A stretch of DNA of 42,184 nt from a virus: IMG/VR virus record IMGVR_UViG_3300042516_001369, positions 1-42,184 of that record; one strand, 5' to 3'. Shown here piece after piece: positions 3,080 to 38,830 of this stretch (position 1 is its first letter; every line of letters starts with the position of its first letter). Both the position numbers and the translations under genes were made by a program. The notes under the pieces were generated by a model. The model was not told the origin of the DNA. It saw nothing but the letters and a program-made list of their open reading frames with translations, and did not search any database.

Positions 3080-3343
3080 ATGCCCACATCAACCACCGAA
3101 ACGGTCGAAATCAACGACGACGGCATGATTTCCTACAAGGAGACGACCGTCGAGACGGACGGAGGCGGAAACGTAATTTCCGTCTCGTACCGGCGGGGCG
3201 TCTATCCGCCATCAGGAAGTCCGGTCGGGATCACCGCCGTCGACACCGTCGGCAGCGTCAGCTGGACCGCCAACGTCATCGAGAAGTATGAGCAGAAGAT
3301 TTATGGCGAGTTGGGTGAGCCTATTCCCCTTGGAGGCGTCTGA
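3080..3343 (+). CDS. Hypothetical protein between fibre and tail tube genes
   Basis: 87 residues, acidic and beta-rich in appearance, with no membrane segment, no cysteine and no recognisable motif. It starts two bases after the fibre stop and its TGA overlaps the next ATG (TGATG), so it belongs to the late operon. Position between a fibre and tail tube A suggests a small virion or tail-assembly component. Function unknown. Confidence 0.65.
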   Translation: MPTSTTETVEINDDGMISYKETTVETDGGGNVISVSYRRGVYPPSGSPVGITAVDTVGSVSWTANVIEKYEQKIYGELGEPIPLGGV

Positions 3344-5129: not shown

Positions 5130-5132
5130 TGA

Positions 5133-7520: not shown

Positions 7521-7525
7521 AACGA

Positions 7526-16291: not shown

Positions 16292-16524
16292 TGGCGAAGA
16301 AGCGCGACTACGCGAAGGAATACCGTGAGTACCAGGGCACGCCGGAGCAGCTGCGCCGGCAGTCGGAGCGCCACAAGGCGCGGCGCAAGATGGGGCTGAA
16401 GACCGGCGACCCGCGCGAGGTCGACCACAAGGTCCCGCTCTCCAAGGGCGGCTCGAACGCGCGGAGCAACCTCCGCATCGTCAGCCGGACGGAGAACCGC
16501 CGCAAGGGCGCGAAGCGGGCCTGA
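16291..16524 (+). CDS. Small HNH endonuclease
   Basis: 77 residues, lysine/arginine-rich. The HNH (His-Me finger) core is 'EVDHKVPLSKGGSNARSNLR', giving the catalytic D-H pair, the central N and the second N, followed by 'SRTENRRKG'. Zinc-ribbon cysteines are absent, as in many short phage HNH proteins. It overlaps both neighbours by one base (TGATG). In cos-type siphophages an HNH protein next to terL stimulates terminase cleavage; the same partnership may operate here, but it could also be a homing-type nuclease. Confidence 0.85.
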   Translation: MAKKRDYAKEYREYQGTPEQLRRQSERHKARRKMGLKTGDPREVDHKVPLSKGGSNARSNLRIVSRTENRRKGAKRA

Positions 16525-18810: not shown

Positions 18811-19337
18811 CCATTTACAACTGAAGACCATCCAGGGCAGAAATTTGCGAGGGGGAGGGTGAACCTGGGTCGGCCGGGCGCACCCCCCGGGCCCCCCGGC
18901 CGCGCTCCGGCCCCCGGCGGCCGACATTATCGACGCCCGGCGCGGCGCCGCCCCTATGACGCGCCCGCCGCGGCCGCCGAGCGCCACAACGGCGCGCCGC
19001 GCCCGCGCCGCCGACGCGCCTCGGCCGATTCATGCGTCCGGCGTGGACTCGAACCGACGGCCGACGCCGCCGGCCAGCCGGCCGAGCGCCCGCCCGCCGA
19101 CGCGCCGGGCCCGCGCCCGCACCGCGCGCACGGCGCCGCGCCGGTCCGGATGGACCCCACGCCCCAACAACCGCGCACCGTCGCCCGCTGGCACCGCCCG
19201 TCCCGGATCCGTTCCCGGCCGGGCCCGCGCTTGCATTTATTCTAGTCGTCGCCTTGACAATGACGAGACAGCGACTATACTAGTGCCATCGGGCCCGACG
19301 TGGGCCCGGCAACGCAACGCAGGAAGGACTGACCGAC
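18811..19337. other. Extremely GC-rich noncoding stretch leading to promoter P1
   Basis: 527 bases. Bases 18860-19230 consist mainly of C and G runs (CCGCCG, GCGCC and CCCCCGGG types), so open frames there have no stops but encode low-complexity Pro/Ala/Arg strings and are not credible genes. The composition changes abruptly at 19230 to an AT-rich promoter. A GCCGGCCAGCCGGCCG-type segment near 19070 recurs in the other GC-rich gap near 22203. The function is unknown; an insulating or end-proximal segment is possible. Confidence 0.6.
19254..19281 (+). promoter_or_regulatory. Promoter P1 (host sigma-70 type)
   Basis: The -35 element TTGACA (19254-19259) matches consensus, followed by a 16-bp spacer and -10 TATACT (19276-19281). 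It sits in the only AT-rich patch of a very GC-rich region. Start of transcription is expected near 19288, about 50 bases before the first gene of the island. An imperfect dyad (CTAGTCG before the -35 and CGACTATACTAG across the -10) could be an operator. Confidence 0.85.
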
Positions 19338-22906: not shown

Positions 22907-23085
22907 AGCGGTACTTTCCGAGGGAATCCGATCGAGACAGGATCAAGCGTGAGTTCCAGAAGGAATTCGGGTTCCTTCCGTGGAACCAGGCGACGTCCAT
23001 TCGGGAGCCGGTGATCGCGACGATCATCTTCGTCGCCGTGATGCTCACGCTCACGCTCACCATCAAATCATGCAGGGGGGAATGA
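22903..23085 (+). CDS. 60-residue single-span membrane protein
   Basis: It has a charged N-terminal ~30 residues ('RDRIKREFQKEFGFLPW') and one clear transmembrane segment ('VIATIIFVAVMLTLTLTI'), then a short 'KSCRGE' tail. It overlaps both neighbours through ATGA. Role unknown; early membrane peptides of T7-like phages often act on host membrane proteins or exclude other phages. Confidence 0.65.
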   Translation: MKRYFPRESDRDRIKREFQKEFGFLPWNQATSIREPVIATIIFVAVMLTLTLTIKSCRGE

Positions 23086-24233
23086 TGGTCACGCTCAACA
23101 AGAACGGCAAGTACTGGCAGGCCAGGTGGACGGATCCCGTGACGGGCAGGCTCTGCCGGCGCGGGCTCGGCGCGCGCGTGCAGGTGACGCGCCAGCAGGC
23201 GGCCGCGCTCTGCAAGCTCATCGCCGACGAGGTGTCGCACAACGCGCTCGCGTCGCTTGAGCCGGCGCCCGCGCCGGAGCCGCCGCCGTCTCCGACCATC
23301 GCCGAGTTCCGCGACCGATGGCTCGCGCAGCAGCACTCGCTGATGGAGTCGACCATGCGGATGCACCAGCGTTACTGGCGCATGATCTGCGAGCAGTTCG
23401 GCACGAGCACCAGGCTCGACGAGGTCACGCCGGACATGGTGCTCGACGCGCGCATCCGCATGGGTTCTCGAGCCGACCTGCTGCACGGCGCCGGCACGCT
23501 GCGCCGCGCCAAGGCCGAGACGACGATCGCACGGATGTGCCGCAACGCGCGCAAGTACTGGCACGACGCCGTCCGCGACGGCCTCGCGCACGGCAACCCG
23601 TGGACCGCCGTCCGCACGACGGCCCCGGAGATCCAGGTGCCGCGCCGGGTCCTCACCGACGACGAGGTCGAGCGCATCATGCGCCACTCGAAGGGCGGGG
23701 TGCGCCTGGTGATCGCGCTGTGCTACTTCGCCGGCCTGCGCCGGCACGAGGCGATCGGGCTGCGCTGGGAGCACGTCGACTTCGACCGCAACCGGATCGT
23801 CGTATGGCCCAAGGCATACGTCGTGACGAGCAAGCACAAGCACCGGGAAGTCAGGCTCGAGCCGCGCCTGGCAGAGATCCTGCGGGAGGCCCCGCGCACG
23901 AGCGAGCGCGTCGTCGGCAGCGTCACCGAGGCCCGTGCATGGCTCGACATGAAGAACGCAGCCGTGAAGGCCGGCGTCACCGGCGACGTCTCGTACCAGC
24001 TCATGCGTTCGAGCCGCGAGAACCACTGGTTCGCGGCCGGCTACCCGGCCAACGTCGTCACGAGCTGGGTCGGGCACTCCCCGCAGGTCGCGGCAAAGCA
24101 CTACCGCGGCGTGGCCGAGCGGTACTACACCGATGAAGCACCTGCTTCACCGCAGTCGGCCGCGAGCGAGATCGCCGCGCTCCGCGAACAACTGCAAGCC
24201 CTTCAAGCCGCCATACTTGGGCGCGCGTCCTGA
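23082..24233 (+). CDS. int: Tyrosine recombinase/integrase
   Basis: 383 residues; an AGGGGGG ribosome-binding site precedes ATG 23082. An N-terminal Arm-binding-like segment ('NGKYWQARWTDPVTGR'), a SAM-like core-binding helical domain (about 70-180), then the catalytic domain: R220 in 'AGLRRHEAIGLRW', Lys at 251/253, R309 in 'QLMRSSRENHW', H332 in 'WVGHS' and nucleophile Y341 in 'AAKHY'. The usual His of the H-x-x-R box is replaced by Gln306, a tolerated variant. A Leu/Ala-rich C-terminal helix follows. It would integrate phage DNA into the host chromosome, implying a temperate life cycle. Confidence 0.93.
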   Translation: MMVTLNKNGKYWQARWTDPVTGRLCRRGLGARVQVTRQQAAALCKLIADEVSHNALASLEPAPAPEPPPSPTIAEFRDRWLAQQHSLMESTMRMHQRYWRMICEQFGTSTRLDEVTPDMVLDARIRMGSRADLLHGAGTLRRAKAETTIARMCRNARKYWHDAVRDGLAHGNPWTAVRTTAPEIQVPRRVLTDDEVERIMRHSKGGVRLVIALCYFAGLRRHEAIGLRWEHVDFDRNRIVVWPKAYVVTSKHKHREVRLEPRLAEILREAPRTSERVVGSVTEARAWLDMKNAAVKAGVTGDVSYQLMRSSRENHWFAAGYPANVVTSWVGHSPQVAAKHYRGVAERYYTDEAPASPQSAASEIAALREQLQALQAAILGRAS

Positions 24234-24262: not shown

Positions 24263-24290
24263 TTGACAAGAAGGGGCGATTGTTTACAGT
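24263..24290 (+). promoter_or_regulatory. Promoter P3 with overlapping dyad
   Basis: -35 TTGACA (24263-24268), 16-bp spacer, -10 TACAGT (24285-24290). A perfect 6-bp dyad, GGGGCG (24273-24278) and CGCCCC (24292-24297), brackets the -10, suitable for a repressor operator. It would drive the recombination and replication genes. Confidence 0.7.
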
Positions 24291-24339
24291 ACGCCCCAAA
24301 GCGGGACGTTCACCGTAAGAACGGCCGCCAAGCGCAACA

Positions 24340-24381: not shown

Positions 24382-24386
24382 ATGAC

Positions 24387-24403: not shown

Positions 24404-25360
24404 ATGGCAGGAAGCACAGAGGTAACCGTGGCGCCGGCGAGTCCGGCGCCACACGCGGCAAGTGCGATTTCGGTGTTCGGGGGCATGGCCGGAGATCCGA
24501 TCTCCATTGGTCGTGTCTTTGCAGAGAGCGGGTTCTTCCCCGACATCAAGAGCGCCTCGCAGGCGGCGGTGAAGCTCATCTTCGGCCGCGGCCTCGGCTT
24601 GAGCGACTACGACTCGATGACCCTCCACCTGGTGGAAGGGAAGATCGTGATGCCGGCCCACCTGATGGCCGCCGCGATCAAGAAGAGCCGCTACGACTAT
24701 CGCGCCGACGTGACGCCGTCGTCGTGCACGATCACGTTCTTCGATCGCACCGGCGGCAAGGCCGAGAAGATCGGGACCACGACGTGGACGCTCGAGGACG
24801 CCAAGCGCGCCGGCCTGGCCGATCGGCAGAACTGGCGCCGCTACCCGTCGGCGATGCTGTTCGCGCGCTGCATCAGCGCCGGCTACAAGCAGCACTGCCC
24901 AGACGCGCTGGGGCACAGCCCCGTCTACGTGGAATCCATGGGGGAACTCGAAATCGAGTCCGCGCCGCCGCGCGTCGCGTTCTCGCGGCCCGTCGACGTT
25001 GACGCACAGCCCATCCTGACTGCCGAGGTGGTGCCGCAGGACCAGACGACGGATCCTGCGCCCACCTCGGCGTCAACTATGACGCGCCGCGACAACCTTT
25101 CTGACAGCGGCCAGGACGAGTTCAGCGCCGTCGAGGCCGCCGTGACCAAGACCGGCGAAGGGAAGTTCGGGCCATGGGAACTGGTGGTGCTCAAGACCGC
25201 CGAGGGTCCGTCGTTCTCGACCCTCAACAAGCGGATGGCCGCGCAGATGCGCGATGCGGCCAGCGACGGCGCGCGCGTCCGGATCACCTGGGACCGAACC
25301 AAGAAGGGCGGCCTTGAGTGCAAGGAGCTGGTGAAGCTCGCGGAAACGGGGGACGCGTGA
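24404..25360 (+). CDS. RecT-like single-strand annealing recombinase
   Basis: 318 residues. The core 'HLMAAAIKKSRYDYRADVTP' followed by 'TTTWTLEDAKRAGLADRQNW' and 'RYPSAMLFARCISAGYKQHC' is the conserved block of phage RecT-family annealing proteins, including the W-x-x-x-D-A-K-R-A-G and Y-P-x-x-M-L-x-A-R motifs. The C-terminal ~90 residues form a separate domain. It anneals complementary strands during recombination-dependent replication and concatemer formation. It pairs with the nuclease gene directly downstream (GTGA overlap), the normal RecE/RecT or Exo/Beta arrangement. Confidence 0.85.
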   Translation: MAGSTEVTVAPASPAPHAASAISVFGGMAGDPISIGRVFAESGFFPDIKSASQAAVKLIFGRGLGLSDYDSMTLHLVEGKIVMPAHLMAAAIKKSRYDYRADVTPSSCTITFFDRTGGKAEKIGTTTWTLEDAKRAGLADRQNWRRYPSAMLFARCISAGYKQHCPDALGHSPVYVESMGELEIESAPPRVAFSRPVDVDAQPILTAEVVPQDQTTDPAPTSASTMTRRDNLSDSGQDEFSAVEAAVTKTGEGKFGPWELVVLKTAEGPSFSTLNKRMAAQMRDAASDGARVRITWDRTKKGGLECKELVKLAETGDA

Positions 25361-26175
25361 ACACTCCGGTTCCCGGCTGCTACCCGTCCGTTCCGGCCGA
25401 CCAGTACCACGCATGGGAAGCGTGCTCGAGCACGGCTCTGCGTGCGCTCATGCGATCGTCCCCTGCTCATGCGAAGGTCGGAATGGTCGACGGCGACAGC
25501 CCGTCCCTGCGCCTCGGAACGGCGGTCCACACGGCCGTCCTCGAGCCGCACCGGTTCGCGTCCGACATTCGGGTCGAGCCGAAGGTGGACAGGCGAACCA
25601 AGGAAGGCAAGGCACTGTGGGAGTCGTTCGAGATGTCGATGATGACGGGGCAGACCCGCATCAGCGAGGAGCAGCTGCTCGTGGTCCAGGCAATTCAGGA
25701 CCGCGTGTGGAACTCGAAGTCGGCGTGCGGCCTGCTCGACGAAGCGGCGCACCGTGAGTACTCGGTCGTCGCGGAGGTCGAGGGAGTTCTCTGCAAGGCG
25801 CGCTGCGACGGCTACGGCGGCGGGCTGATCCTCGACGTCAAGACCACGAGCGGACTCGCATCGCACGACGAGTTCGCGAAGACGATGTGGAACTTCGGCT
25901 ACGCCGTGCAGGCACAGCTCTATCGCATGGTGCTGAACCGCGCCGGCCTGAAAGCCGACCGCTTTGCGTGGATCGTGTGCGAGACGAACGCGCCGCACGG
26001 GGTCGCCTGCTATTCGATCGACGCGAGCCTGCTCGACTCGTTCGAGCCGCTGGTGGTCAACGCGCTGCACCGCTGGGCCGACTGCGAGCACACGAAGTCG
26101 TGGCCAGCGTATCCGGACGAGGTCGTCGGGCTCGAGCTCCCGTCGTGGATGACAAGGCAACTCGAGGTGATCTGA
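25357..26175 (+). CDS. RecE-like PD-(D/E)XK exonuclease (DUF3799-like)
   Basis: 272 residues from a GTG overlapping the recT-like stop. 'LRLGTAVHTAVLEP' (about 51-64) is the conserved G-x-x-x-H motif. The nuclease core is 'VLCKARCDGYGGGLILDVKT', with D151 and D160-x-K162, followed by 'YAVQAQLYRMVL', the Q-x-x-x-Y motif of the RecB/Exo VIII-type family. It should resect duplex DNA to 3' tails for the annealing protein. Missing long RecE N-terminal regions are normal for phage versions. Confidence 0.85.
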   Translation: MNTPVPGCYPSVPADQYHAWEACSSTALRALMRSSPAHAKVGMVDGDSPSLRLGTAVHTAVLEPHRFASDIRVEPKVDRRTKEGKALWESFEMSMMTGQTRISEEQLLVVQAIQDRVWNSKSACGLLDEAAHREYSVVAEVEGVLCKARCDGYGGGLILDVKTTSGLASHDEFAKTMWNFGYAVQAQLYRMVLNRAGLKADRFAWIVCETNAPHGVACYSIDASLLDSFEPLVVNALHRWADCEHTKSWPAYPDEVVGLELPSWMTRQLEVI

Positions 26176-26176
26176 C

Positions 26177-26779
26177 ATGGCGAACGAGCTGGACACGGAA
26201 CGTCTGGCCCAACTCGAACGGATCGTCGAAGACGGCGCAAGGCAGTTCGTCGCGGTCGGAGAGGCACTCCGCGAGATCAGGGACAGAAGGCTCTTCAAGG
26301 CGAGCCACGACTCCTTCTCGGCATACGTCGAGGAGCGGTTCGGTTTCACTTCGCGCTGGGCGAACAAGCTCATCAAGCGCGAGGAGCCGAAGCGCGAGGT
26401 CGTCGACCTCGACGAAGGACCTGACCTCGACGAGGTGATCGAGGTGGAGGAGCCCGTGCGGGTCGACGCCGAGGTGGTCGACCCGATGCACGAGGCGAAG
26501 GTCGAGTTCAGCCGCGCGTTCGACGCCGTGCTCCAGGCCCGGCGCGCGGTCCTGTCGCTGCTGAAGGGCCCGCACGCCGCGTGGCTCCAGCAGCAGGCGA
26601 TCGACGCCGCGATGACCAACCTGATGTCGGAGCTCAAGTGGGGGGCGCCGGGTCGCTCGTGCCCGCAAGCCGGCGATCACGGCAAGCGGTGCAGGTGCAA
26701 GGGTCTTGGGTGGATACCGCAATCGCAAATCGGACAGGAGGGGAACGGAAATGGTCGTGGCAATCGACGAGAAGGCTGA
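26177..26779 (+). CDS. Putative DNA-binding protein with C-terminal Cys knuckle
   Basis: 200 residues. Residues ~10-70 ('VAVGEALREIRDRRLFKASH', then 'SFSAYVEERFGFTSRWANKL') match the pattern of phage proteins in which a long helix precedes a helix-turn-helix. An acidic linker follows (35 residues rich in Asp/Glu/Val), then a helical region and a C-terminal 'SCPQAGDHGKRCRCKGLGW' that could bind zinc. Located in the replication operon; a DNA-binding replication or regulatory function is inferred. Confidence 0.7.
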   Translation: MANELDTERLAQLERIVEDGARQFVAVGEALREIRDRRLFKASHDSFSAYVEERFGFTSRWANKLIKREEPKREVVDLDEGPDLDEVIEVEEPVRVDAEVVDPMHEAKVEFSRAFDAVLQARRAVLSLLKGPHAAWLQQQAIDAAMTNLMSELKWGAPGRSCPQAGDHGKRCRCKGLGWIPQSQIGQEGNGNGRGNRREG

Positions 26780-27035
26780 TCGGCTGATTCAACGGGACAA
26801 GCTCGACGAGCTGATGCGGATCGACGCAGGCTTCCGCAAGAGCGGAGCGGCGTACTGCATCCTCGTGTCGAGCCTGCTGGTCAAGGACGACCTCGACGAT
26901 GTCGACCGGCGCGTCCTGCTGAACCTCCAGGCCGACATGATCTACAAGGCCGAGATCCTCATGGAGGTGAGCCCGTCGCTGCGGGCACGGGCCGAGCGGC
27001 ACCTCCGCTTGCTGCGGAAGGAAGTGACGCAGTGA
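26751..27035 (+). CDS. Small helical hypothetical protein
   Basis: 94 residues when started at ATG 26751, which has a GGAGGGGAACGG upstream; longer in-frame starts would lie deep inside the previous gene. All-helical appearance with many charged residues ('DEKADRLIQRDKLDELMRID'), no motif. It overlaps the preceding gene by 29 bases and the next by four. Confidence 0.6.
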   Translation: MVVAIDEKADRLIQRDKLDELMRIDAGFRKSGAAYCILVSSLLVKDDLDDVDRRVLLNLQADMIYKAEILMEVSPSLRARAERHLRLLRKEVTQ

Positions 27036-27298
27036 GCGACCGGCGCAAGGACGCGCACCCGTTGCTGTTCGACGGATGCGACAAGGCAATCATCGGATAC
27101 ATCAGCCGCTGCGGGCAGGTTCCGATGGTCGTCTACGACTGGGAACGACTCGTTCGCGTCTTTGAGAAGCAAGGGATGACGAACGAGGAGGCCGACGAGT
27201 GGGTTGCCTTCAACTGCGAAGGCGCCTGGCTTGGATCCGGTACGCCTGGAATCCTGCATCGCGGCAACGCAGACGCCGTGAAGGAGGCGATCGAATGA
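27032..27298 (+). CDS. Conserved phage protein of unknown function
   Basis: 88 residues from a GTG overlapping the upstream stop. 'AIIGYISRCGQVPMVVYDWE' and 'GMTNEEADEWVAFNCEGAWL' followed by G-S-G-T-P form a pattern I recognise from many short proteins of unrelated tailed phages (R-C-G-Q, Y-D, E-E-A, N-x-x-G-A-W, G-x-G-T-P). Function is unestablished. It precedes the helicase gene, overlapping by ATGA. Confidence 0.75.
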   Translation: MSDRRKDAHPLLFDGCDKAIIGYISRCGQVPMVVYDWERLVRVFEKQGMTNEEADEWVAFNCEGAWLGSGTPGILHRGNADAVKEAIE

Positions 27299-28917
27299 AC
27301 CTCCGCCCGTATCAGGAGCACGCCGTCGCCGCCGTGGAGCAGGCGCACGCCGAGCACCAGGCGGCACTCCTCGTGCTGCCGACCGGCTGCGGTAAGACGG
27401 TCGTGTTCAGCCACCTGGCCGCCCGCCAGCCGAAGCGGACCCTCATCCTCGCGCACCGGCAGGAGCTCGTCGAGCAGGCGGCCGAGAAGATCCGGGCCGT
27501 CACCGGCGAGCACGCGGCCATCGAAATGGGCAACCGCTACAGCCAGGAGCGCGGCGTTTACGCGGCCGCGAAGGTCGTCGTCGCCAGCGTGCAGACCATG
27601 ATCGCCGGGTTCAGCGGGAAGCGGCGCATGGATCGGTTCCGGCCGAACGACTTCGGGCTTGTCGTCGTCGACGAGGCGCATCACTCGGCCGCGAACTCCT
27701 ACCGCGCGGTGATCGAGTACTTCACCAAGCACAGCGGCGCGCGCGTCCTGGGCGTGACCGCGACGCCTGACCGAGGCGACAAGAAGGGGCTCGGCGACGT
27801 CTTCCAGACGATTGCCTACCAGTACGAGGTTGCGGACGCGATCTCCGACGGCTGGCTCGTCCCGGTGACGCAGCAGATCGTGCACGTCAAGAGCCTCGAC
27901 TTCAGCGAGGTGCGCTCGCGCGGCGGCGACTTCATGGAGGCCGACCTCGCACGGGTGATGCAGTACGAGAAGACGCTCCAGGGCGTCGTCGCACCGGCGC
28001 AGGAACTCACCTCGAAGCTGCGGACCGTCGTGTTCGCGACGAGCGTCGACCACGCTGACCGGATGGCCGAGATGTGGAATCGCTATGACGCCGGGTGCGC
28101 CCGTTCCGTGAGCGGCCGCATGAACCGCGACGAGCGCCGGCAGCTGCTGACGGCATTCGCGCGCGGCGACTTCCGCGTCCTGACCTCGTGCATGGTGCTG
28201 ACGGAGGGCTGGGACTGCCCGGCCGTCGAGGCGGTCGTCATGGCCCGGCCGACCAAGAGCAGGGCGCTCTACGCGCAGATGCTCGGCCGGGGCACGCGCC
28301 CGCTTCCTGGGCTCGTCGACGGCGTGGAGGATGCCTACGAGCGCCGCCTCCGCATCGAGACGAGCACGAAGCCCGAGCTCAAGGTGCTCGACTTCACGGG
28401 AAACAGCGCGCAGCACAAGCTGGTGTGCGCCATCGACATCCTTCGGCCCGACGCCTCGGTGGAGGTGCGGGAGATCGCCGTTCGCAAGGCCGCGAGCGGG
28501 ATCCGAGTCGACACGGCCGTCGACGAAGCCGAGGAGGAGGAACGCGCTCGGAGGGACCAGGCCCGACGCGAGCAGGAGGCTCGCCGTGCCGCCCTCCGGG
28601 CGCGCGCCACCTACAGCGTGGCCGCGATGAACCCGTTCGACGTGATCGGGCGGGCGCCGCCGAAGGCGACCGCGTTCGACCGGACCCGCCAGATCAGCGA
28701 CGGGATGCGGAACGTCCTGCTGAAGGGCGGCGTTGATCCCGACGGCATGAACTACGCCGAGGCCAAGGCGATGTGCGCCGAGATCGTGCGGCGTTGGAAG
28801 GCCGGGCTCTGCACATTGAAGCAGGCCAAGTACCTGAAGGACATGGGGCACAGCCCCGACTGCACGCGCGAGGAGGCGCGGCGGATTCTCGATTCAGCAT
28901 GGAGGAAGACAGCGTGA
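27295..28917 (+). CDS. Superfamily 2 DEAD/DEAH-box helicase
   Basis: 540 residues. Q-motif-like 'LRPYQEHAV' at the start, Walker A 'LPTGCGKT' (28-35), motif Ia 'ILAHRQELVEQA', DEAH box at 126-129 ('VVDEAHHS'), motif III 'VTATPDRGD' from 154, and motif VI 'QMLGRGTRPLPG' from 328. The last ~100 residues are an extra helical domain ('KQAKYLKDMGHSPDCTREEA'). It is a DNA-dependent ATPase of the type III restriction/UvsW-like group and unlike the hexameric T7 gp4 helicase. It probably unwinds or remodels recombination and replication intermediates alongside the RecT-like protein. Confidence 0.92.
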   Translation: MNLRPYQEHAVAAVEQAHAEHQAALLVLPTGCGKTVVFSHLAARQPKRTLILAHRQELVEQAAEKIRAVTGEHAAIEMGNRYSQERGVYAAAKVVVASVQTMIAGFSGKRRMDRFRPNDFGLVVVDEAHHSAANSYRAVIEYFTKHSGARVLGVTATPDRGDKKGLGDVFQTIAYQYEVADAISDGWLVPVTQQIVHVKSLDFSEVRSRGGDFMEADLARVMQYEKTLQGVVAPAQELTSKLRTVVFATSVDHADRMAEMWNRYDAGCARSVSGRMNRDERRQLLTAFARGDFRVLTSCMVLTEGWDCPAVEAVVMARPTKSRALYAQMLGRGTRPLPGLVDGVEDAYERRLRIETSTKPELKVLDFTGNSAQHKLVCAIDILRPDASVEVREIAVRKAASGIRVDTAVDEAEEEERARRDQARREQEARRAALRARATYSVAAMNPFDVIGRAPPKATAFDRTRQISDGMRNVLLKGGVDPDGMNYAEAKAMCAEIVRRWKAGLCTLKQAKYLKDMGHSPDCTREEARRILDSAWRKTA

Positions 28918-29093
28918 GGAAGAAGCGTCGCAAGCCGGTCACGTTCGAGCAGGCAGAGGAGATTCGACGTCTCGTCCGTGGCGGAGCAACCTTGACGGTC
29001 ATCTGCGAGCGGTACGGGATCTCGAAGCCGTACGCAAGCTTGATCGCTCGCAACCTTCGGAAGAAGCGGAGGCCAGCCAATGTCGCAGCGTGA
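28914..29093 (+). CDS. Small helix-turn-helix protein
   Basis: 59 residues from GTG 28914, which overlaps the helicase stop (GTGA) and has GGAGGAAG six bases upstream; an ATG at 28899 is possible but less well placed. 'TFEQAEEIRRLVRGGATLTV' then 'ICERYGISKPYASLIARNLR' is a classic helix-turn-helix resembling resolvase/Trp-repressor types, flanked by basic ends. It could be a transcription regulator, the only one clearly visible besides the small protein at 22709. Confidence 0.75.
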   Translation: MRKKRRKPVTFEQAEEIRRLVRGGATLTVICERYGISKPYASLIARNLRKKRRPANVAA

Positions 29094-29343
29094 CGAGGGC
29101 GGGATCGTCGAGTGCGACGAGACGTGGGTCCGTTTCGAGTGGCCGTCGTTTCAGGTCCGGAACACCGGCTCCCAGAAGCTGCGCGTGAACGCCGAGATCG
29201 TGCACGGAGCGTACGAGGTTTCGTTCGAGGTGATTGAGCTCGATGACGTCGCTTGCCCCCGGACGATCTGCGAATTCAGCCTGTCGATCAACAGCCTCGA
29301 GCGGATGGTCAAGGTCGCCAGGGCGCAGGAGGGAATGCAATGA
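29080..29343 (+). CDS. Hypothetical protein
   Basis: 87 residues, acidic and beta-rich in appearance ('TWVRFEWPSFQVRNTGSQKL', 'EVSFEVIELDDVACP'), two Cys, no motif. Good GGAGG ribosome-binding site; overlaps the gene before by 14 bases and the primase by four (ATGA). Possibly a single-strand-DNA-binding or inhibitory small protein, but nothing in the sequence proves it. Confidence 0.6.
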   Translation: MSQRDEGGIVECDETWVRFEWPSFQVRNTGSQKLRVNAEIVHGAYEVSFEVIELDDVACPRTICEFSLSINSLERMVKVARAQEGMQ

Positions 29344-30209
29344 ACGGCAAGTGGATGCGGTGCAGTCGCCGGCACCCGTGCCCTGTCTGCGGTCACGCCG
29401 ACTGGTGCTGCTGGCTGTCGACCGGCGAGGTGTTCTGGTGCATGAGGTCGGGCGCCGGCAGCGTGCCGGGCTTTGAGCGCGGCAAGACGCACGTCAATGG
29501 CGGAACGGCGTGGCGACCGACCGTCGAGCCGCCGCCGCGCATGGCGCTGCGTCGTGACGAAGCCGAGGTCGTCCGCACCAAGAGCGCGATCCCGTGGAGC
29601 GTGATCCAGGTCGACTGCATGAACGAGATGACCGAGGACGGGCTGTATGACGCGGCGTCCATGCTCCGCATCCCGGCATCCTCGCTCCAGGCGTTTGACA
29701 TGGGATGGAGCGTCCACTGGAAGGCGTGGACGTTCCCGATGCGGCACCCTGTCAGCAAGCGCATCGTCGGCATCCGCACTCGGACTCCGTGCGGCAGGAA
29801 GTTTGCGCTCGCCGGAAGCAAGCAGGGATACTTCATGTGCACCTACGCAAGGCCGCAGCAGCGCGTGTTCCTCGTCGAGGGACCGACTGATGCCGCCGCG
29901 GTTCACTCGCTTGGCCTCGAGGCGATCGGCCGCGCGTCGTGCCTGCACCTGTCGCACGCGTTGCGCGATGCGCTGGCCGGCAGGACCGTGCTCGTCGTCG
30001 CCGACAACGACGAGGCCGGCCGGCGCGGGGCGTCGCGGGCTGCGGAGTTCCTCGACCGTTCCCGCGTGACCGTGATGTCTCCGCCGGCGCAGTTCAAGGA
30101 CATGAGGGCGTGGATCGCTGGCGGCGCGAACAGGCAGGACGTCGAGACTCTGGCAAGGGAGGCCATCGAAAATGCCGTGGAAGAGCAAGTTCAACGTATC
30201 TCCGCCTGA
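29340..30209 (+). CDS. DNA primase with zinc finger and TOPRIM domain
   Basis: 289 residues. N-terminal zinc ribbon with C14-x-x-C17 ('CPVCGHADWCCW') plus C23/24 and C34, then a ~120-residue linker domain and a TOPRIM domain: E180 in 'VFLVEGPTDAAAV' and D222-x-D224 in 'VLVVADNDEAGRRGA'. This is the architecture of phage DnaG-type primases but lacks the fused RecA-like hexameric helicase seen in T7 gp4. It should make primers for lagging-strand synthesis, using a host polymerase since none is encoded in view. Confidence 0.88.
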   Translation: MNGKWMRCSRRHPCPVCGHADWCCWLSTGEVFWCMRSGAGSVPGFERGKTHVNGGTAWRPTVEPPPRMALRRDEAEVVRTKSAIPWSVIQVDCMNEMTEDGLYDAASMLRIPASSLQAFDMGWSVHWKAWTFPMRHPVSKRIVGIRTRTPCGRKFALAGSKQGYFMCTYARPQQRVFLVEGPTDAAAVHSLGLEAIGRASCLHLSHALRDALAGRTVLVVADNDEAGRRGASRAAEFLDRSRVTVMSPPAQFKDMRAWIAGGANRQDVETLAREAIENAVEEQVQRISA

Positions 30210-30555
30210 CCAGCGCCGGTCGTTCGGCAGGACGTACGCATCAAAGGCGGAGAAGGAGTACGCGGATTGGTGTCGGGCGTGCCATTCCAGCGGCGCGTTC
30301 CAGCTCGTGCTCGAGCAGGTTTCGATCTGGCTCGGTGTCCCGGAGAACACCTACCGTCCTGATTTCTTCATCATCTTCGCCGACGGCTCGTACGAGTTCG
30401 TCGACGTGAAGGGCGTCGAGACGGCCGCGTTCAAGAAGACCGTGAGGCTGTGGAAGGCGTACGGTCCCTGCCGCCTGCGTGTCGTGAAGCGGAAGGGAAA
30501 GGGATTCGCGACCGCATACGTCGTCGAGAAGGGAGCGCAATGCCGCGCCGAATGA
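30172..30555 (+). CDS. DUF1064-type PD-(D/E)XK nuclease (Holliday-junction-resolvase-like)
   Basis: 127 residues, overlapping the primase end by 38 bases. 'YASKAEKEYADWCR' gives the conserved S-x-x-E, 'YRPDFFIIFADGSYEFVDVK' gives the catalytic P-D and D-x-K, and 'WKAYGPCRLRVVKR' follows; together these are the DUF1064/VRR-like pattern. It occupies the slot filled in T7 by endonuclease I, a junction resolvase, and probably processes branched DNA before packaging. The nuclease fold is well supported, the exact substrate is inference. Confidence 0.82.
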   Translation: MPWKSKFNVSPPDQRRSFGRTYASKAEKEYADWCRACHSSGAFQLVLEQVSIWLGVPENTYRPDFFIIFADGSYEFVDVKGVETAAFKKTVRLWKAYGPCRLRVVKRKGKGFATAYVVEKGAQCRAE

Positions 30556-30833
30556 TCGGAAGACCGAAGCGATACGTCCAGTCGAGGTTCGGACTGTTTG
30601 CCGCAATGAGCCCGCTCGAGGCGTGGTGCGACGATGGAAGCGCGTCGAGGTACGTCGAGATCCGTTGCAACAACAACGGAAACGATGGCTCATGGTCCGC
30701 GATGACCAGCCCGGATGAGGTCCGTCGGCTGGGCCAATGGCTCATGGCCGCAGCGGCGTGGATGGAGTCGTGCGATTCCATCGGTCCTGGCGCGCGGGAG
30801 GTTTCGGAGCAGCTCTACAAGGGAGAGGGATGA
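30540..30833 (+). CDS. Small hypothetical protein upstream of the RNA polymerase
   Basis: 97 residues from ATG 30540, overlapping the nuclease gene by 16 bases. It contains 'ASRYVEIRCNNNGNDGSWSA' and 'WLMAAAAWMESCDS', with no recognised motif. ATGA coupling to the polymerase gene suggests co-expression; a small regulator or inhibitor of a polymerase would fit this position but is speculation. Confidence 0.6.
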   Translation: MPRRMIGRPKRYVQSRFGLFAAMSPLEAWCDDGSASRYVEIRCNNNGNDGSWSAMTSPDEVRRLGQWLMAAAAWMESCDSIGPGAREVSEQLYKGEG

Positions 30834-33271
30834 CGATGCTCAAGGCAGCGATGCACGGACGCCTGCTGGCCGACACAATCATGGACAAGGAACTCGACCT
30901 TGAGCGCCGTGCGGCCGAGGACGGCGCGGCCCGGTACGAGGCCATGAGCCAGGCAGCGATCAACCGCGGGGAGGGGGCGCAGCTTCGGCCAGCGGAGCGG
31001 ATGCTCGCCGCGTGGTATCCGGTCCTGCTCGCCGAGATTCGGCGCGAGCGCACGAGGTGCGTGATGGGCAAGGCAGGGGCCGGCCGGGCGGTTTACGGGC
31101 CGATCCTCGCCGCAATCCGGCTGAAGCCGGCCACCGCCATCGTGCTCCACGAGGCGATGAGCCACGCGATGCAGTGTCCGCGAGGCGTCACGCTCACCAA
31201 GGTTTCCTACGCGATCGGGTCGGCGATGGTCGCGGAGATTCACGCGAACGCCTTCAGCGAGCGGAAGATCGATACGAAGGAGCTCGACGCGCTCATCCGG
31301 CGGAAGGGTCAGAAGATCCCGCGCGCGATCAACCACTGGGCGAAGCAGACGCTCGAGGACCACGTCTGGGCACGGCGCGTCTGCACGATGCTGGGTCAGG
31401 CGATGGTGTGGAAGCTGATCGACTCTGCGACGCTGGACGCCGGCGAGGGAGTGCAGCTGCCGTGCTTCGTCGTCCGGCCGCTGTGGCAGAACGGAAAGCG
31501 CGTGAATCACCTGGTGCTGACTGACCACGTCCAGCGGCTGATCGCGGACGCGCAGCTTCTCCGCTCGGGGATGCGGCCTCGGTTCGCGCCGATGGTCGTC
31601 CCGCCGCTCCCATGGGGAAAGGATGGCGAGAAGATGACCGAGGGAGGCCATTATCGCCTCCGGACACCTTTCGTGGTGCGAACCTCACGCAGCCTGCGCG
31701 AGCGACTCAAGGCCGCGTCCATGGACCAGGTGTTCAACGCGGTGAACTCACTGTCGTCGACGGAATGGCAGATCGATCCGTTCGTGAAGGACACCATCTC
31801 ATCGCTCCTGGCGCAGGGCGGCGGCGTGGCCGGCATCCCCCGCGCCGATCCCATCCCGCTGCCACCGAAGCCGGAGGGGCTCGACGGGCTCAAGGACTGG
31901 CAGCGAGAGGCGGCGCAAATCTACGAGGCGAACCGCAAGGCGTACTCGAGCAGGAACGACCTGCTGCTGGCGCTCAACCTCGCCGACCGGCTCGTCGACA
32001 GCCAGGTGATCTGGTTCCCGCACCAGCTCGACTTCCGGTCGCGGTGCTACCCGGTGCCGCTGCACCTCAACCACGTCGGCGAGGACCCGCGCCGTGCCAT
32101 GCTGCGGTTCGCGAAGTCCGTGGCTCCGGACATGGATGCCATCAAGGTGCACACAGCGAACTGCTGGGGCAGGGGCGTCGAGAAGAAGCCGTTCGCGGAG
32201 CGCATCGCCTTCACGGACTCCGGCGCCCGCGACTTCGAGCGGTTCCAGGCCGACCCGCTGAAGCACGATGGCTGGATGGCGGCCGAGGACCCGTTCCAGT
32301 TTCTCGCCGCTTGCCGGGCCTTGTTCGACTCGCGGGCGGCGGCGAAGCTCCCGGTGCAGGCTGATGGATCGAACAACGGGTTGCAGCACTACGCCGCGAT
32401 GGGGCGCGATCCGGTGAGCGGACGCGCCGTGAACCTCGTGCCTGGCGTGCTGCCGAGCGACGTCTACATGGAGGTCGGCCAGGTCGCCTGCCGGAAGGTG
32501 ATGGAACTCGCCGACGCCGGCGACCAGACCGGACGCCTCGTCCTGTCGAAGGTCACCGACCTTCCCAAGTGGCGCAAGGTCGTGAAGCAGAACGTGATGA
32601 CGAGCGTGTACGGGGTCACGCGGACCGGGGCGCGGGAGCAGCTCGTGCCGAGGCTCCTCGAGCTCGGGATGGAGCGGAAGGACGTCGCGAAGGCGGCATC
32701 GTGGCTCGCCAAGGTCACGATGGAGTCGATCGGGGAGAAGTGCATCGCCGCGAGCGAGATCATGGGGTGGCTCAAGGGGGCCGTCCGCCAGATCGTCCTC
32801 AAGGACCGGACGAAGCCGATCGAGTGGACGACGCCGCTCGGGTTCCCGGTGCTCCAGCCGTACTGGAACCAGCACCGGCTTCGGATCAAGACCTCGGTCA
32901 GCCCGTGGGAACTGCACCTGGACGTCCCGAACGAGGACGACAACCAGCACCTGGGGCGGAACGTCAACGGGATCGCCCCGAACTGGGTGCACTCGATCGA
33001 CGCGAGCCACATGATGCTGACGGCGCTGCGGTGCCGGGTGGACGGCATCGAGTTCGCCGCGGTCCATGATTCGTTCTGGACGCACGCCGGGACGGCCCGC
33101 CGGCTGGCGCACGCGCTGCGGGACGAGTTCGTCTCGCTCCACGAGCGTCCGCTGCTGGCCGACCTCAAGCAGTCGTGGGAACGCCGCTATGACGTCTCGC
33201 TGCCGGACCTGCCGGCGACGGGCTCGCTCGACCTCGCAGACGTGCGGAGGAGCGAGTACTTCTTCGCGTGA
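30830..33271 (+). CDS. Single-subunit DNA-dependent RNA polymerase (T7 type)
   Basis: 813 residues from ATG 30830, which overlaps the preceding stop; T7 RNAP has 883. Catalytic blocks, with T7 equivalents: 'LDFRSRCYPVP' (D401-R405, motif T/R-G-R-x-Y), D512 in 'QADGSNNGLQHYAAMGRD' (T7 D537), K586 and Y594 in 'KVVKQNVMTSVYG' (T7 K631, Y639), and H746-D747 in 'AAVHDSFW' (T7 H811-D812). All catalytic aspartates are present. It should transcribe the late genes from phage-specific promoters. Placement after the replication genes and directly before the virion genes resembles phiKMV rather than T7. Confidence 0.96.
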   Translation: MTMLKAAMHGRLLADTIMDKELDLERRAAEDGAARYEAMSQAAINRGEGAQLRPAERMLAAWYPVLLAEIRRERTRCVMGKAGAGRAVYGPILAAIRLKPATAIVLHEAMSHAMQCPRGVTLTKVSYAIGSAMVAEIHANAFSERKIDTKELDALIRRKGQKIPRAINHWAKQTLEDHVWARRVCTMLGQAMVWKLIDSATLDAGEGVQLPCFVVRPLWQNGKRVNHLVLTDHVQRLIADAQLLRSGMRPRFAPMVVPPLPWGKDGEKMTEGGHYRLRTPFVVRTSRSLRERLKAASMDQVFNAVNSLSSTEWQIDPFVKDTISSLLAQGGGVAGIPRADPIPLPPKPEGLDGLKDWQREAAQIYEANRKAYSSRNDLLLALNLADRLVDSQVIWFPHQLDFRSRCYPVPLHLNHVGEDPRRAMLRFAKSVAPDMDAIKVHTANCWGRGVEKKPFAERIAFTDSGARDFERFQADPLKHDGWMAAEDPFQFLAACRALFDSRAAAKLPVQADGSNNGLQHYAAMGRDPVSGRAVNLVPGVLPSDVYMEVGQVACRKVMELADAGDQTGRLVLSKVTDLPKWRKVVKQNVMTSVYGVTRTGAREQLVPRLLELGMERKDVAKAASWLAKVTMESIGEKCIAASEIMGWLKGAVRQIVLKDRTKPIEWTTPLGFPVLQPYWNQHRLRIKTSVSPWELHLDVPNEDDNQHLGRNVNGIAPNWVHSIDASHMMLTALRCRVDGIEFAAVHDSFWTHAGTARRLAHALRDEFVSLHERPLLADLKQSWERRYDVSLPDLPATGSLDLADVRRSEYFFA

Positions 33272-33295
33272 CCATGTAAACCCGCGGTATGTGAT

Positions 33296-34037: not shown

Positions 34038-34745
34038 ATGTCGACCACCCAGCAGCGACTAGCACAACTGATCGCGCAGCGGCAGGCAACCGCCATGTCC
34101 GTCGACAAGACGCGCTCGTACATCCAGAACTTTGCGAAGTCGCGAATCAACGATCTGAAGTCAGAGATTCAACGATCTCCGCGGAATTGGGTCGGCAAAA
34201 GCGGCGCTCAAAGCGAGATCCAGCGATTTGCGAGCATTGAGAGTGCTGTGCAGCGTGGCGAGTTGCCGACATGGTCGTCGCTCGCACCAGCCGCGACGCG
34301 CGAGCGGTACTTCGCGCCGGTGGTGTTCGACAAGTCTGTTGGTTTCGTAGCCAAGATGCCTGATGGCAAAGAGTTGCATCCGCGGTACTTCCAGGGTGGG
34401 AAGGGCTATCAAGAAGCACTGCTTGCCCAGAACAAGCAGTTCTATAACTCAATTGTCGCGAAGGCTGGCAGCATTTCGGCCTTGGACCAGGAGATTTCAA
34501 GCCTACAGACGCAGCTTGCCAATGAACTGGCCGGCGGTGCGGCGACCGGAGGCGGCTCGCCGACTTCCGGCGGTGGCACGACCATCACGCCGATTGAAGG
34601 TCCGGTCGACCAAATCGACGAATCTTCCTTCGCCCAGACGGAGGCGCAGTCCAACGAGCGATCGCGCCTGCGACGTGACCGTGCCCGCATCGCGTTCGGC
34701 ACGCCGCGCTTCGGCGTCGGCATCAACATCCCGCTCGGAACCTGA
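34038..34745 (+). CDS. Late virion-type protein with C-terminal IPxGT motif, copy 2
   Basis: 235 residues. Coiled-coil-like segments at the N-terminus and near 140-165 ('SISALDQEISSLQTQLANEL'), then a Gly/Thr/Ser-rich linker ('GGAATGGGSPTSGGGTTITP') and a C-terminus ending 'FGVGINIPLGT'. Codon use is visibly less GC-rich than neighbours over the first two thirds (TCAATT, GAGATTTCAAG), suggesting more recent acquisition. Stops one base into the portal start. The function is unknown, probably virion-associated. Confidence 0.65.
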   Translation: MSTTQQRLAQLIAQRQATAMSVDKTRSYIQNFAKSRINDLKSEIQRSPRNWVGKSGAQSEIQRFASIESAVQRGELPTWSSLAPAATRERYFAPVVFDKSVGFVAKMPDGKELHPRYFQGGKGYQEALLAQNKQFYNSIVAKAGSISALDQEISSLQTQLANELAGGAATGGGSPTSGGGTTITPIEGPVDQIDESSFAQTEAQSNERSRLRRDRARIAFGTPRFGVGINIPLGT

Positions 34746-36352
34746 TGAAAAACATCGAAGCCTGCTGGCAACGAGACGACGCGCGGCGGCAGACAATCCT
34801 CGAGCGCGCGCGCCAGTGTGCTTCGCTGACCCGCCCGTGGATCCTCCCGGAGCTAGGACAGACGGCCGACTCGAAGATGCCGGAGACGTTCACGAGCCTT
34901 CCTGGCCGCGGCGTCGCCAACCTCGAGGGACGCCTGCTCATGGCGCTCTACCCGCCGGGCACGCCGTTCTTCAGGCTCATGCCGGCGGCGCACATTCGCT
35001 ACTCGAAGGACGTTGACCACGAGAAGCTGAACTCGTTCGCCAACGCGCTCTCGGTGTACGAGCTCCTGATGATGGCGAAGCTCGAGTCGAGCGACATGGG
35101 CAGCGCGGCAAACCGCCGGCGCAGCGGATTCCGCTCCAAGAAGCGCGCGGCGCTCACCCAGATCCTCGTCACCGGGGACGTGCTCGAGCAACTGACCGAC
35201 GACTACCGCATCCGCGTCTTCCGGCGCGATCAGTACGTCACGAAGCGCGACTCCAGCCAGGAGGTCGAGTACCACATCGTTCGGGAGAAGATCGACCCGC
35301 GCACGCTCGCGCCGGAGATCCTCGCCGCCGCTGACATCGACCTTGAGTCCGGCAAGGAAGACTATGAGCCTGACGAGATCCTGCTGTACACGCGGTGCAG
35401 GTGGGAGCCGTTCTCGCGCATCTGGGTGACGGAGCAGGAGATCAACGGCAACGTCGTCGCGACGAGCGAGGATCCGGTGCCGTCGTTCTTTGCGACCCCA
35501 TATGAACTGGCGCCCGGCGAGGACTACGGCCGCGGGTTCGTCGAGAGCAACCTCGGTGACGTCCGGACGCTGAACGAGCTGCACGAGCGCCTGATCGACT
35601 TCGCCGGGATGTGCTCCAAGTTCGTCCCCGTGATCGACTACAACAGCCAGATCCGGGCCTCGGACCTCGCGAAGCCGAGCGGCGAGGTGATCGAGGGGCG
35701 TGTCGTCGGCGGGCAGGTGCAGGACGTCGCGTTCCTGTCGGTCAACAAGGGAAGCGACTTCCAGGTCGTGTACCAGACCGCCGCGGACAAGCGGCGTGAC
35801 CTCGCGGTCGCGATGCTGATGGAGGCCGATTCGGCACCGAAGGCCGAGCGAGTCACCGCGTACCAGATCCAGCGCATCGCGACCGAGCTCGAGGGCGCGC
35901 TTGGCGGCATCTACGCGCCGATCGCCGATGCCCAGCAGGTCCCGCTCGTCGAGCGCCTGATGTACCTGATGCAGCGCCAGCGGCTCGTGCCGTCCATGCC
36001 GCGCGGCTCGTTCGACATCGAGGCACAGACCGGCATCGCCGCGCTGTCCCGCGAGGCCGACAAGGCCAAGCTGCTCCAGCTCCTCGGCACGATGGCGCAG
36101 TTCGGGCCCGAGGCGGCGAACCGGATCAACATCGGCGTGCTGTTCGACACGCTGCTCCGACAGAGCGGCATCTACGAGCCTGGGCTCGTCAAGACCGACG
36201 AACAGCTCGCCGCCGAGGCACAGGCCGCCCTCCAGCAGCAGATGGAGATGGAGGCCCAGAAGAAGCTCATCAACGTGAGCGGAAACGTGATGCAGAACGA
36301 GCTTGCACCGCAAGCAGGAGGACCGAATGGAACAGGAACACCCGCCGGCTGA
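34745..36352 (+). CDS. Portal / head-tail connector (T7 gp8-like)
   Basis: 535 residues, against 536 in T7 gp8. The N-terminus 'RARQCASLTRPWILPELGQT' and 'SLPGRGVANLEGRLLMALYP', then 'PPGTPFFRLMP', are diagnostic for the T7-type portal; the middle has 'YELAPGEDYGRGFVESNLGD' and the C-terminus a Gln/Met-rich tail. Twelve copies form the DNA channel at the capsid vertex and dock the terminase. It overlaps the preceding gene by one base and precedes scaffold, as in T7. Confidence 0.95.
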   Translation: MKNIEACWQRDDARRQTILERARQCASLTRPWILPELGQTADSKMPETFTSLPGRGVANLEGRLLMALYPPGTPFFRLMPAAHIRYSKDVDHEKLNSFANALSVYELLMMAKLESSDMGSAANRRRSGFRSKKRAALTQILVTGDVLEQLTDDYRIRVFRRDQYVTKRDSSQEVEYHIVREKIDPRTLAPEILAAADIDLESGKEDYEPDEILLYTRCRWEPFSRIWVTEQEINGNVVATSEDPVPSFFATPYELAPGEDYGRGFVESNLGDVRTLNELHERLIDFAGMCSKFVPVIDYNSQIRASDLAKPSGEVIEGRVVGGQVQDVAFLSVNKGSDFQVVYQTAADKRRDLAVAMLMEADSAPKAERVTAYQIQRIATELEGALGGIYAPIADAQQVPLVERLMYLMQRQRLVPSMPRGSFDIEAQTGIAALSREADKAKLLQLLGTMAQFGPEAANRINIGVLFDTLLRQSGIYEPGLVKTDEQLAAEAQAALQQQMEMEAQKKLINVSGNVMQNELAPQAGGPNGTGTPAG

Positions 36353-37109
36353 AGCGCCGGCAGAGGCCGCATCGCCACCGGCTGAAACGCCGGCGGCGGT
36401 GCGGATCGAGTCAAAGGGCGTCTCGGCAACCGCGGATGCGGCCACGATCGCGGAGATCACGCCGAAGAAGTGGGCCGGAAAATTCGAGAGCCCGGAGGCG
36501 CTCGAGCAGGCGTACGCCGAGGCGCAGAAGCTCATCGGGCAGCGCCGGATCGACAGCCCGGAATCGCTCGCGGAGAAGGCCGGCGTCAAGCTCGAGGAAC
36601 TGACCGCGGCGTACATGGCTGACGGGAAGATCCCGCCGACGGCGCTCGAGGCGCTCGAAAAGGCAGGCATTGGCCGTGCGTTTGCCGAGCGGATCGTCCA
36701 GGGCGAGGCCGCCCGCGTGAAGTACGCGCAGGGCGAGGTCGACCGCGTCGTGCAGCAGGTGACCGAGATCGCCGGCGGCGCGGTGCAGCGCGACACGGTC
36801 CTGAACTGGGCCGCGGCAAGCCTCCCGAAGGCCGACATCGAGAAGATGAACGCGCGGCTCAACGACCCGCAGCAGGCGGTGTCGGCGATCCGCGAGCTGA
36901 TGTTCATGCACCAGCAGGCAGTCGGATCCGGCAAGGCGCGGCCGCTCGTGTCGGGCATGGCGCCGGTCGCGGAGGCGCCCGGCTTCACCAACTCGTCGCA
37001 GGTCGTGGCGGCGTTCGCCGCGGCCCGCCGGCAGGGCTACCTCGACGAGGCGACCAAGCGGCGCCTCGCGAACACGCCCGAACACATCTTGCAGGGGATC
37101 AACCGATGA
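36327..37109 (+). CDS. Capsid scaffolding protein (T7 gp9-like)
   Basis: 260 residues from ATG 36327, which has GGAGGA a few bases upstream; the earlier ATG at 36303 lacks this. N-terminus is Pro/Ala/Glu-rich and disordered; 'KKWAGKFESPEALEQAYAEA' is the typical short motif of T7-like scaffolds; the C-terminus is helical and basic ('AARRQGYLDEATKRRLANTP'). It directs procapsid assembly and leaves before packaging. It overlaps the portal 3' end by 26 bases and precedes the capsid gene by one small gene. Confidence 0.88.
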   Translation: MEQEHPPAEAPAEAASPPAETPAAVRIESKGVSATADAATIAEITPKKWAGKFESPEALEQAYAEAQKLIGQRRIDSPESLAEKAGVKLEELTAAYMADGKIPPTALEALEKAGIGRAFAERIVQGEAARVKYAQGEVDRVVQQVTEIAGGAVQRDTVLNWAAASLPKADIEKMNARLNDPQQAVSAIRELMFMHQQAVGSGKARPLVSGMAPVAEAPGFTNSSQVVAAFAAARRQGYLDEATKRRLANTPEHILQGINR

Positions 37110-37684: not shown

Positions 37685-38830
37685 ATGAGCAACGTCAACT
37701 ACGAGCGCATCCTGGCCTCGTGGAACGGGTCCGCCCACGATTCCACGGACAGCCTGGCGCTGAAGGTCTTCTCGGGCATGGTGCTCGAGGCATTCCAGCA
37801 GTCCACCCAGTTCTACGACCGCACCGGCCAGTTCATCTCGGTCAAGGTCATCGAGGGCGCCAACTCGGCCCAGTGGCCGATCCTCGGCGACGACCCGGCC
37901 CCGTCGTACCACACCCCCGGCGTCGTGCTGAACAACACGGTCAGCTCGCCGCGCATCAAGACCGCCTCGGCCGACGTCGTCGTGGACGAGATCCTCGTCA
38001 ACGCCCTCGACGTCCCCTTCCGCGACATGGAGATCAGCCACTTCGACGTGCTGGCCCCCTTCGCGACGAAGCTCGGCCGCGGCATCGCGAAGGTGCTCGA
38101 CAAGAAGATCGCGATCCTCGCGGTCAAGGCGGCCCGCACCGCCAGCGTCACCAGCCTCCACGGCGGCGGCTACAAGGTCGAGCGCAACTCGTCCGGCTCC
38201 GGCAGCACCCTGCTGACCGACGGCTCGGCGTACCAGCTCTCGCCCCGCGGCGCCTACAACTTCCGCTCGGACGTCGCGTCCCTGGCCCAGGCCATGGACG
38301 AGAAGGCCGTGCCGGAGAGCAGCCGCTACCTGTTCATCACGCCCTACATCAAGAGCGTGCTCCGGTTCGAGGCCAACTTCGACGGCACGAACCTGACCAG
38401 CGTGCCGGTGCTCCCGTCGACGTACGACCAGAACCTCAACACCAGCCCGAACGACGTCAACAACCGCGTCATCGGGATGCTCGAGGGCTTCAAGGTCATC
38501 GTCACCAACCACCTGCCCAGCGGTGACCTGACCGGCAACAGCCTGACCGGCGAGGACGCGGCCATCGCGTACACGTCCGGTTCCGGCACGACCGGCGGCA
38601 AGTACCAGGGCCTCTTCGACGGCTCCACGCAGGCGGGTGGCCGCCCCGTGGCCGTGGCCCTGTGCGGCGCCGACACCGGCAGCCCGGCGATCGGCATGGT
38701 CCAGGCGTCCGGCCTGCGGTCGTACGTCGAGGCCGACGAGCGGCGCAACACGCAGTTCATGAAGGCCCAGATGATGGCCGGCATGGGCATCATCTGCCCG
38801 TGGTCGGCGGGCGTGATCCAGGTGTACTGA
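37685..38830 (+). CDS. Major capsid protein (T7 gp10-like)
   Basis: 381 residues, against 345-398 in T7. 'LASWNGSAHDSTDSLALKVF' and 'GMVLEAFQQSTQFYDRTGQF' followed by a 'GKTAQFP'-like 'NSAQWPILGDDPAPSYHTPG' segment are typical of T7-type HK97-fold capsids; the end 'MMAGMGIICPWSAGVIQVY' resembles the usual P-E-A-A/G-V C-terminus. Codon choice is almost exclusively C- or G-ending, consistent with selection for very high expression. Flanked by terminators on both sides, so it forms a separate transcription unit. Confidence 0.95.
   Translation: MSNVNYERILASWNGSAHDSTDSLALKVFSGMVLEAFQQSTQFYDRTGQFISVKVIEGANSAQWPILGDDPAPSYHTPGVVLNNTVSSPRIKTASADVVVDEILVNALDVPFRDMEISHFDVLAPFATKLGRGIAKVLDKKIAILAVKAARTASVTSLHGGGYKVERNSSGSGSTLLTDGSAYQLSPRGAYNFRSDVASLAQAMDEKAVPESSRYLFITPYIKSVLRFEANFDGTNLTSVPVLPSTYDQNLNTSPNDVNNRVIGMLEGFKVIVTNHLPSGDLTGNSLTGEDAAIAYTSGSGTTGGKYQGLFDGSTQAGGRPVAVALCGADTGSPAIGMVQASGLRSYVEADERRNTQFMKAQMMAGMGIICPWSAGVIQVY

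Follow-up and report, generated by a model that had tools for sequence, protein, structure and literature searches.

Analysis of a 42,184-base viral record (IMGVR_UViG_3300042516_001369; the whole stretch is called the window here) indicates that it comes from a temperate phage of the T7 type, on a deep branch for which no isolate was found; the phage lacks a DNA polymerase, and it probably directs its own late transcription and is replicated by the host Pol III. We put the probability of this reading at about three in four. The phage is T7-like by its hallmark enzyme and virion and is not T7-like by its replication. The record is linear, has a G+C content of 66% and carries no end repeats. 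Nearly all genes with coding signal lie on the + strand, and from left to right they run through tail and internal virion genes, the terminase, an early region, a tyrosine integrase and RecT, followed by an ExoVIII-type nuclease, a helix-turn-helix protein, an SF2 helicase, a TOPRIM primase, a resolvase and a single-subunit RNA polymerase, with the portal, scaffold and capsid genes downstream of the RNA polymerase. The genes from the integrase through the RNA polymerase form one rightward block ahead of T7-type virion genes.

Recombination, replication and integration genes of the window

A sequence-only reading of the window had named a RecT/RecE-like pair, an SF2 helicase, a stand-alone primase and an RNA polymerase, and profile matches on the + strand bore out all of these. 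The pair consists of a RecT-like single-strand annealing protein (24404..25360; phrog_561, E 5.8e-13; phrog_4171, E 4.9e-8) and a RecE/ExoVIII-like PDDEXK nuclease (DUF3799; 25318..26175; phrog_412, E 5e-65; PF12684, E 2.8e-17). The SF2 helicase (27199..28917, start probably 27295; phrog_16, E 3.2e-90; ResIII, E 1.3e-32) has RadD as its best match among solved structures (E 2.3e-37), and its nearest phage kin are helicases of Gram-positive siphophages (Streptococcus, Paenibacillus and Faecalibacterium phages). The primase is of the DnaG/T7-gp4 type, with zinc and TOPRIM parts (29253..30209, start probably 29340; Toprim_2, E 4.9e-7). It has no helicase half, and its phrog_239 match covers the primase half only; its Cys motif (zinc), E183, D225 and D227 are conserved, its structure model (pLDDT 68) matches the DnaG and T7 gp4 primase domains, and no match to it was found among isolate phages. 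The nuclease that the reading had named DUF1064 is present as well: 30172..30555 (+ strand) encodes a DUF1064-like, Holliday-junction-resolvase-like nuclease by its match to phrog_190 (E 5.5e-10), but DUF1064 itself scored 21.8 bits, under the Pfam cut-off. Finally, the single-subunit DNA-directed RNA polymerase (30737..33271, start probably 30830; PF00940, E 2e-106; phrog_414, E 5.9e-174) conserves the catalytic residues D543, K617, Y625 and D778.

Directly upstream of RecT we found a tyrosine integrase gene that was absent from the gene list of the sequence-only reading (22980..24233, + strand, start probably near 23082; phrog_1, E 3e-40; Phage_integrase, E 1.1e-11), with the catalytic residues R254, QxxR343, H366 and Y375 kept. 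With an integrase present, a temperate phage is the best reading of the window. A helix-turn-helix protein with a C-terminal Cys/His cluster (26177..26779, + strand) was recognized by alignment with three relatives and with the ParB-like protein of clade member G029; conserved across the clade, G029 included, it is a candidate DNA-binding organizer. Further upstream, 21194-21952 encodes a phrog_2554 protein (E 1.1e-73) without known function. Proteins of this family are common to the T7-like contigs L057, L058 and L067 (42-50% identity), where they lie upstream of the RNA polymerase; L057 and L058 encode a DNA polymerase, and the L067 record is incomplete.

A T7-type virion and packaging module

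Portal, scaffold, capsid, tube, nozzle, gp14 and terminase genes occur in T7 order, all on the + strand. These comprise a T7 gp8-type portal, or head-tail connector (34745..36352; phrog_449, E 2.5e-100), a scaffold protein assigned by a weak Phage_T7_Capsid match (E 0.019) plus its position (36303..37109), a major capsid protein (37685..38830; Gp10A-like, E 4.3e-7), a stretch encoding tail tube proteins, nozzle and gp14-like internal virion protein (3343..8140; PF17212, PF25675 and PF24072) and a T7-type terminase large subunit (16524..18188; phrog_38, E 3.7e-96; T7 terminase RNase H-like domain, E 3.3e-33). Three further proteins of the virion region (877, 560 and 1339 aa) were Pfam-negative, and their position and conservation fit virion proteins. 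dN/dS values of 0.05-0.33 for the RNA polymerase, helicase, primase, portal, capsid, terminase and integrase indicate constraint (two misframed comparisons, RNA polymerase with L036 and RecE with G015, were left out).

At the tail-tube position the window has three tandem genes (3343-5129), where T7 has one and the relatives mostly two; two of the three match the Tube profile, and the third is related to the same genes of the relatives. A dual tubeA has been described for phage phiGT1 (PMC10386132). Near the terminase, a small ORF directly upstream (16292-16524) looks by eye like an HNH-type endonuclease (DHKVPLSKGG...N), and a clade-conserved protein (14946-15992) matches phrog_7339, 'DNA repair exonuclease' (E 1.9e-11), and no Pfam family.

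DNA polymerase is absent from the window and its clade

The sequence-only reading had seen no DNA polymerase, and our searches agree with it. Six-frame searches of the window and its kin yielded no candidate for a DNA polymerase of family A, B (two models) or C, and Pfam and PHROGs profile scans found none among the large ORFs of the window (PF00476 in six frames, PF00136, PF07733 and PF03175 all negative). As a positive control, the PF00476 search matched 14 of the 37 other RNA-polymerase-bearing records, none of them from the window's clade, so the family A search was sensitive enough.

To place the window, RNA polymerase relatives were drawn from viral contigs and two trees were built, one of 49 sequences and a more careful one of 38 that included T3, SP6, phiKMV, P-SSP7 and several temperate T7-like phages. 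Absence of a DNA polymerase was scored only where a record covers all or most of the replication region, and incomplete records were left unscored. In both trees, a single 100/100 branch separates the records that bear a DNA polymerase from the window and the records shown to lack one. The presence of a DNA polymerase changes only once along the RNA polymerase tree, and the incomplete records that group on the window's side do not contradict the split. Lack of a DNA polymerase is thus a trait of the clade, fixed across its sufficiently covered members.

We then considered whether a polymerase is present and was missed, either because the sequence between the contig ends is missing from the record or because the gene has diverged beyond the reach of the profiles. 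The linear record has no end repeats, and the 877- and 560-aa proteins have no Pfam function, both of which would leave room for such a gene. However, a tail-fibre cassette is found at both contig ends, in two versions that have diverged (the first at the contig end, 40687..42184, and the second at the contig start, 1..1531; both + strand), and the relatives carry a single copy of it. In blastn comparisons, identity is 94% between 1-251 and 40687-40934 and 76% between 840-1412 and 41501-42073. Most simply, these are the two ends of a contig with a self-overlap of ~1.5 kb at a variable fibre locus, the alternative being a tandem duplication; neither offers a likely place for a polymerase. Furthermore, in relatives G001 (98% identical to the window over the RNA polymerase fragment) and G015 the sequence continues across the 42184/1 junction with no polymerase there, so none turned up in the gap where the sequence-only reading had allowed for one. 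A divergent form, in turn, would need to be hiding in every member of a clade in which PF00476 matched nothing. We consider a missed polymerase very improbable. The window is then an almost complete genome, of ~40.7 kb if the contig ends overlap; none of the near-complete relatives is a closed circular record.

A second way to account for the missing polymerase is that the window is a decayed prophage, or a satellite that replicates only with the aid of a helper phage, and the presence of an integrase would suit this. The packaging, head and tail gene set is complete, however, and the genes are under purifying selection. In addition, many divergent records share the architecture, the relatives keeping the order integrase, recombinase, nuclease, helicase, resolvase, RNA polymerase and portal. 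Decay or satellite status is accordingly a very unlikely explanation.

Replication genes of relatives point to the host replisome

Within this conserved order, replication genes are swapped among members of the clade. G041 carries Erf, a weak initiator match and a DnaB helicase; G035 a lambda-O/DnaD-like protein; G029 Sak4, a ParB-like protein, RusA and an SF2 helicase; and L050 and G037 RecT plus a resolvase. The primase is missing from the G033/G016 branch, which indicates that it is not essential to the replication scheme proposed below. Genes for Erf, Sak4, DnaB and lambda-O/DnaD-like proteins are typical of (temperate) phages copied by the host replisome. Dependence on host Pol III, which the sequence-only reading had suggested, is well supported by elimination, given the clade-wide lack of a DNA polymerase, and by these genes of the relatives.

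We propose the following scheme, drawn from gene content and order. The early block would be transcribed by the host RNA polymerase from sigma-70 promoters, and the phage RNA polymerase, the last gene of that block, would then transcribe the virion genes. Two sigma-70-like sites on the + strand stand at suitable places, one before the early genes (19254..19281; TTGACA-16-TATACT, 11/12 to consensus) and one just before RecT (24263..24290; TTGACA-16-TACAGT, 10/12); in all, 18180-38000 holds 4 such sites against 1.3 expected in shuffles. Phage DNA would be copied by the host Pol III replisome, while RecT, the exonuclease and the resolvase would make and process recombination intermediates and the head-to-tail concatemers used by the T7-type terminase. 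The SF2 helicase and primase may assist in DNA opening and in loading of the host fork, for which the site could be a recombination intermediate or an origin to which the 26177 helix-turn-helix protein binds. The integrase would permit lysogeny.

How replication begins within this scheme is less certain than who performs it. Of genes that might recruit the host fork, the window has the SF2 helicase and the primase, DnaB and O/DnaD-like genes being found in relatives only, and we recognized no initiator, helicase loader or DnaB-binding motif in the window. With RecT, an exonuclease, a resolvase and an SF2 helicase present and no recognizable initiator or loader, recombination-driven initiation is plausible. 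Initiation by the 26177 protein, or by primase plus helicase, would fit as well. In that sub-case of host-replisome dependence, the helix-turn-helix protein binds an origin, or the primase and SF2 helicase start the fork, the host replisome follows, and RecT/RecE serve concatemer formation and repair only. The initiator and DnaB-type genes of relatives speak for such a start, as does the conservation of the 26177 protein across the clade up to G029, where its kin is ParB-like; on the other hand, we identified no origin in the window and the structure model of the protein is poor (pLDDT 62). We regard this as a serious possibility that falls somewhat short of even odds.

In another sub-case of host dependence, R-loops formed by transcripts of the phage RNA polymerase would serve as replication primers, as those of T7 RNA polymerase do at the T7 origin, and host Pol I/III would extend them. 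An intact T7-type RNA polymerase in a genome with neither a polymerase nor a recognized initiator is in keeping with this, and the T3 primary origin beside a phage promoter is an annotated precedent. Yet whole-window and intergenic scans returned only GC-rich coding repeats and no conserved phage promoter motif, and the place of the RNA polymerase as last gene of its block suits late transcription. Priming by R-loops therefore seems unlikely. Common to all three modes of initiation is the preferred reading, in which the host replisome copies the phage.

Relationship to known phages

No isolate from the window's branch was found among 50,697 phage records; the closest isolates stand at ~31% in the RNA polymerase, 34% in the portal and 39% in the terminase. 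The nearest isolates by any of these three proteins have a DNA polymerase where checked (the YIMV22061 stretch ends before its likely place), and so do Mycobacterium phage jiawei and Pseudomonas phage Oiolarie, which are among the top matches for distant clade members. Two scans of genome contigs for prophage kin yielded one contig only, from a metagenome-assembled genome (MAG) labelled Euryarchaeota. Two contigs with a T7-type RNA polymerase carry this MAG label (L085 = PBMS01000049.1; G057 C33) and are probably binned phage DNA. A 48-kb plasmid record, Vibrio panuliri plasmid pVPan1 (L086), resembles a T7-like phage-plasmid with an integrase, an RNA polymerase and a DNA polymerase.

The single-subunit RNA polymerase is a hallmark of the Autographiviridae (PMC10134795). 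The window has this enzyme and lacks the family A DNA polymerase and gp4-type primase/helicase of the family, of which it keeps the primase half only, and its RNA polymerase falls outside the recognized Autographiviridae set, across the 100/100 branch. Temperate Autographiviridae (LUZ100, TRX32-1, Pasto, HTVC019P, Lo5R7ANS and BB8) are like the window in their single-subunit RNA polymerase, their T7-type portal, capsid, tail and terminase, and their integrase or proven lysogeny. They differ in that all have a T7-type DNA polymerase and a fused primase/helicase, and their RNA polymerases lie on the opposite side of the 100/100 branch; carriage of a DNA polymerase is what has been reported for known temperate T7-like phages (PMC10134795, PMC8631192). 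phiKMV (Krylovirinae) shares with the window an RNA polymerase just before the virion genes and a primase encoded as a separate gene, but has a DNA polymerase and a ligase, and no integrase within the stretch read.

Other likenesses lie outside the T7-like phages. Modules of Sfi21-type and similar temperate siphophages also combine an SF2 helicase, a primase and recombination genes with no DNA polymerase, whereas the window's primase is DnaG/gp4-like; to our knowledge, Sfi21-type siphophages have neither a T7-type RNA polymerase nor a T7-type virion. Lambda Red and RecET resemble the window in pairing a RecT annealing protein with an ExoVIII-type nuclease. In lambda, an origin and replication proteins (O and P) accompany the recombination genes, while no O/P-type origin or replication proteins were recognized in the window. 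In the parts of the literature on temperate T7-like phages and Sfi21-type modules available to us, we found no T7-like phage without a polymerase; Boeckman et al. 2022, cited in PMC10134795 for temperate T7-like prophages, may hold such cases.

N4 RNA polymerase proved too distant to place the root of the RNA polymerase tree, and the clade may be either a sister group or a derived branch of the Autographiviridae. Among T7-like phages the window would be a new variant, probably at family level, placed relative to the Autographiviridae on an unrooted tree.

Similarity to mitochondrial RNA polymerase

The window's RNA polymerase aligned better with the yeast (316 bits) and human (300 bits) mitochondrial enzymes than with that of T7 (254 bits). 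The same preference was seen for clade member L053, while for LUZ100 and HTVC019P the reverse held, the T7 enzyme scoring above the mitochondrial ones. Among 48 phage enzymes compared with yeast, the median score was 333 for records with no DNA polymerase detected and 226 for those with one, the two ranges overlapping; L057, which has a DNA polymerase, scored as high as the window's clade. The RNA polymerases of L048, L088, L050 and the window are unusually similar to the mitochondrial enzyme, and L048 had the top score of all tested phage enzymes with both yeast and human. In the trees, the yeast and human enzymes join the branch between the window's clade and classical T7-like phages, nearer the clade (0.13-0.44 changes per column, against 0.67-0.93 to the classical side), a comparison of two mitochondrial sequences with no usable outgroup. 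One reading is that the clade's RNA polymerase belongs to a separate, deep lineage, closer than any other phage lineage to the mitochondrial enzyme, which would then have come from a host-replicated temperate phage and not from a T7-like lytic one. We think this doubtful at present and treat the placement as a cautious lead only.

Implications for T7-like phages

T7-like phages are the textbook example of viruses that bring their own replication set. The branch described here keeps T7 transcription and the T7 virion and is seemingly replicated by its host, with recombination and helicase genes that can be swapped. T7's mode of life would thus come apart into two separable halves, which bears on whether the T7-like ancestor was temperate and host-replicated. 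For the origin of mitochondrial RNA polymerase, the branch may be a third deep phage lineage to consider.
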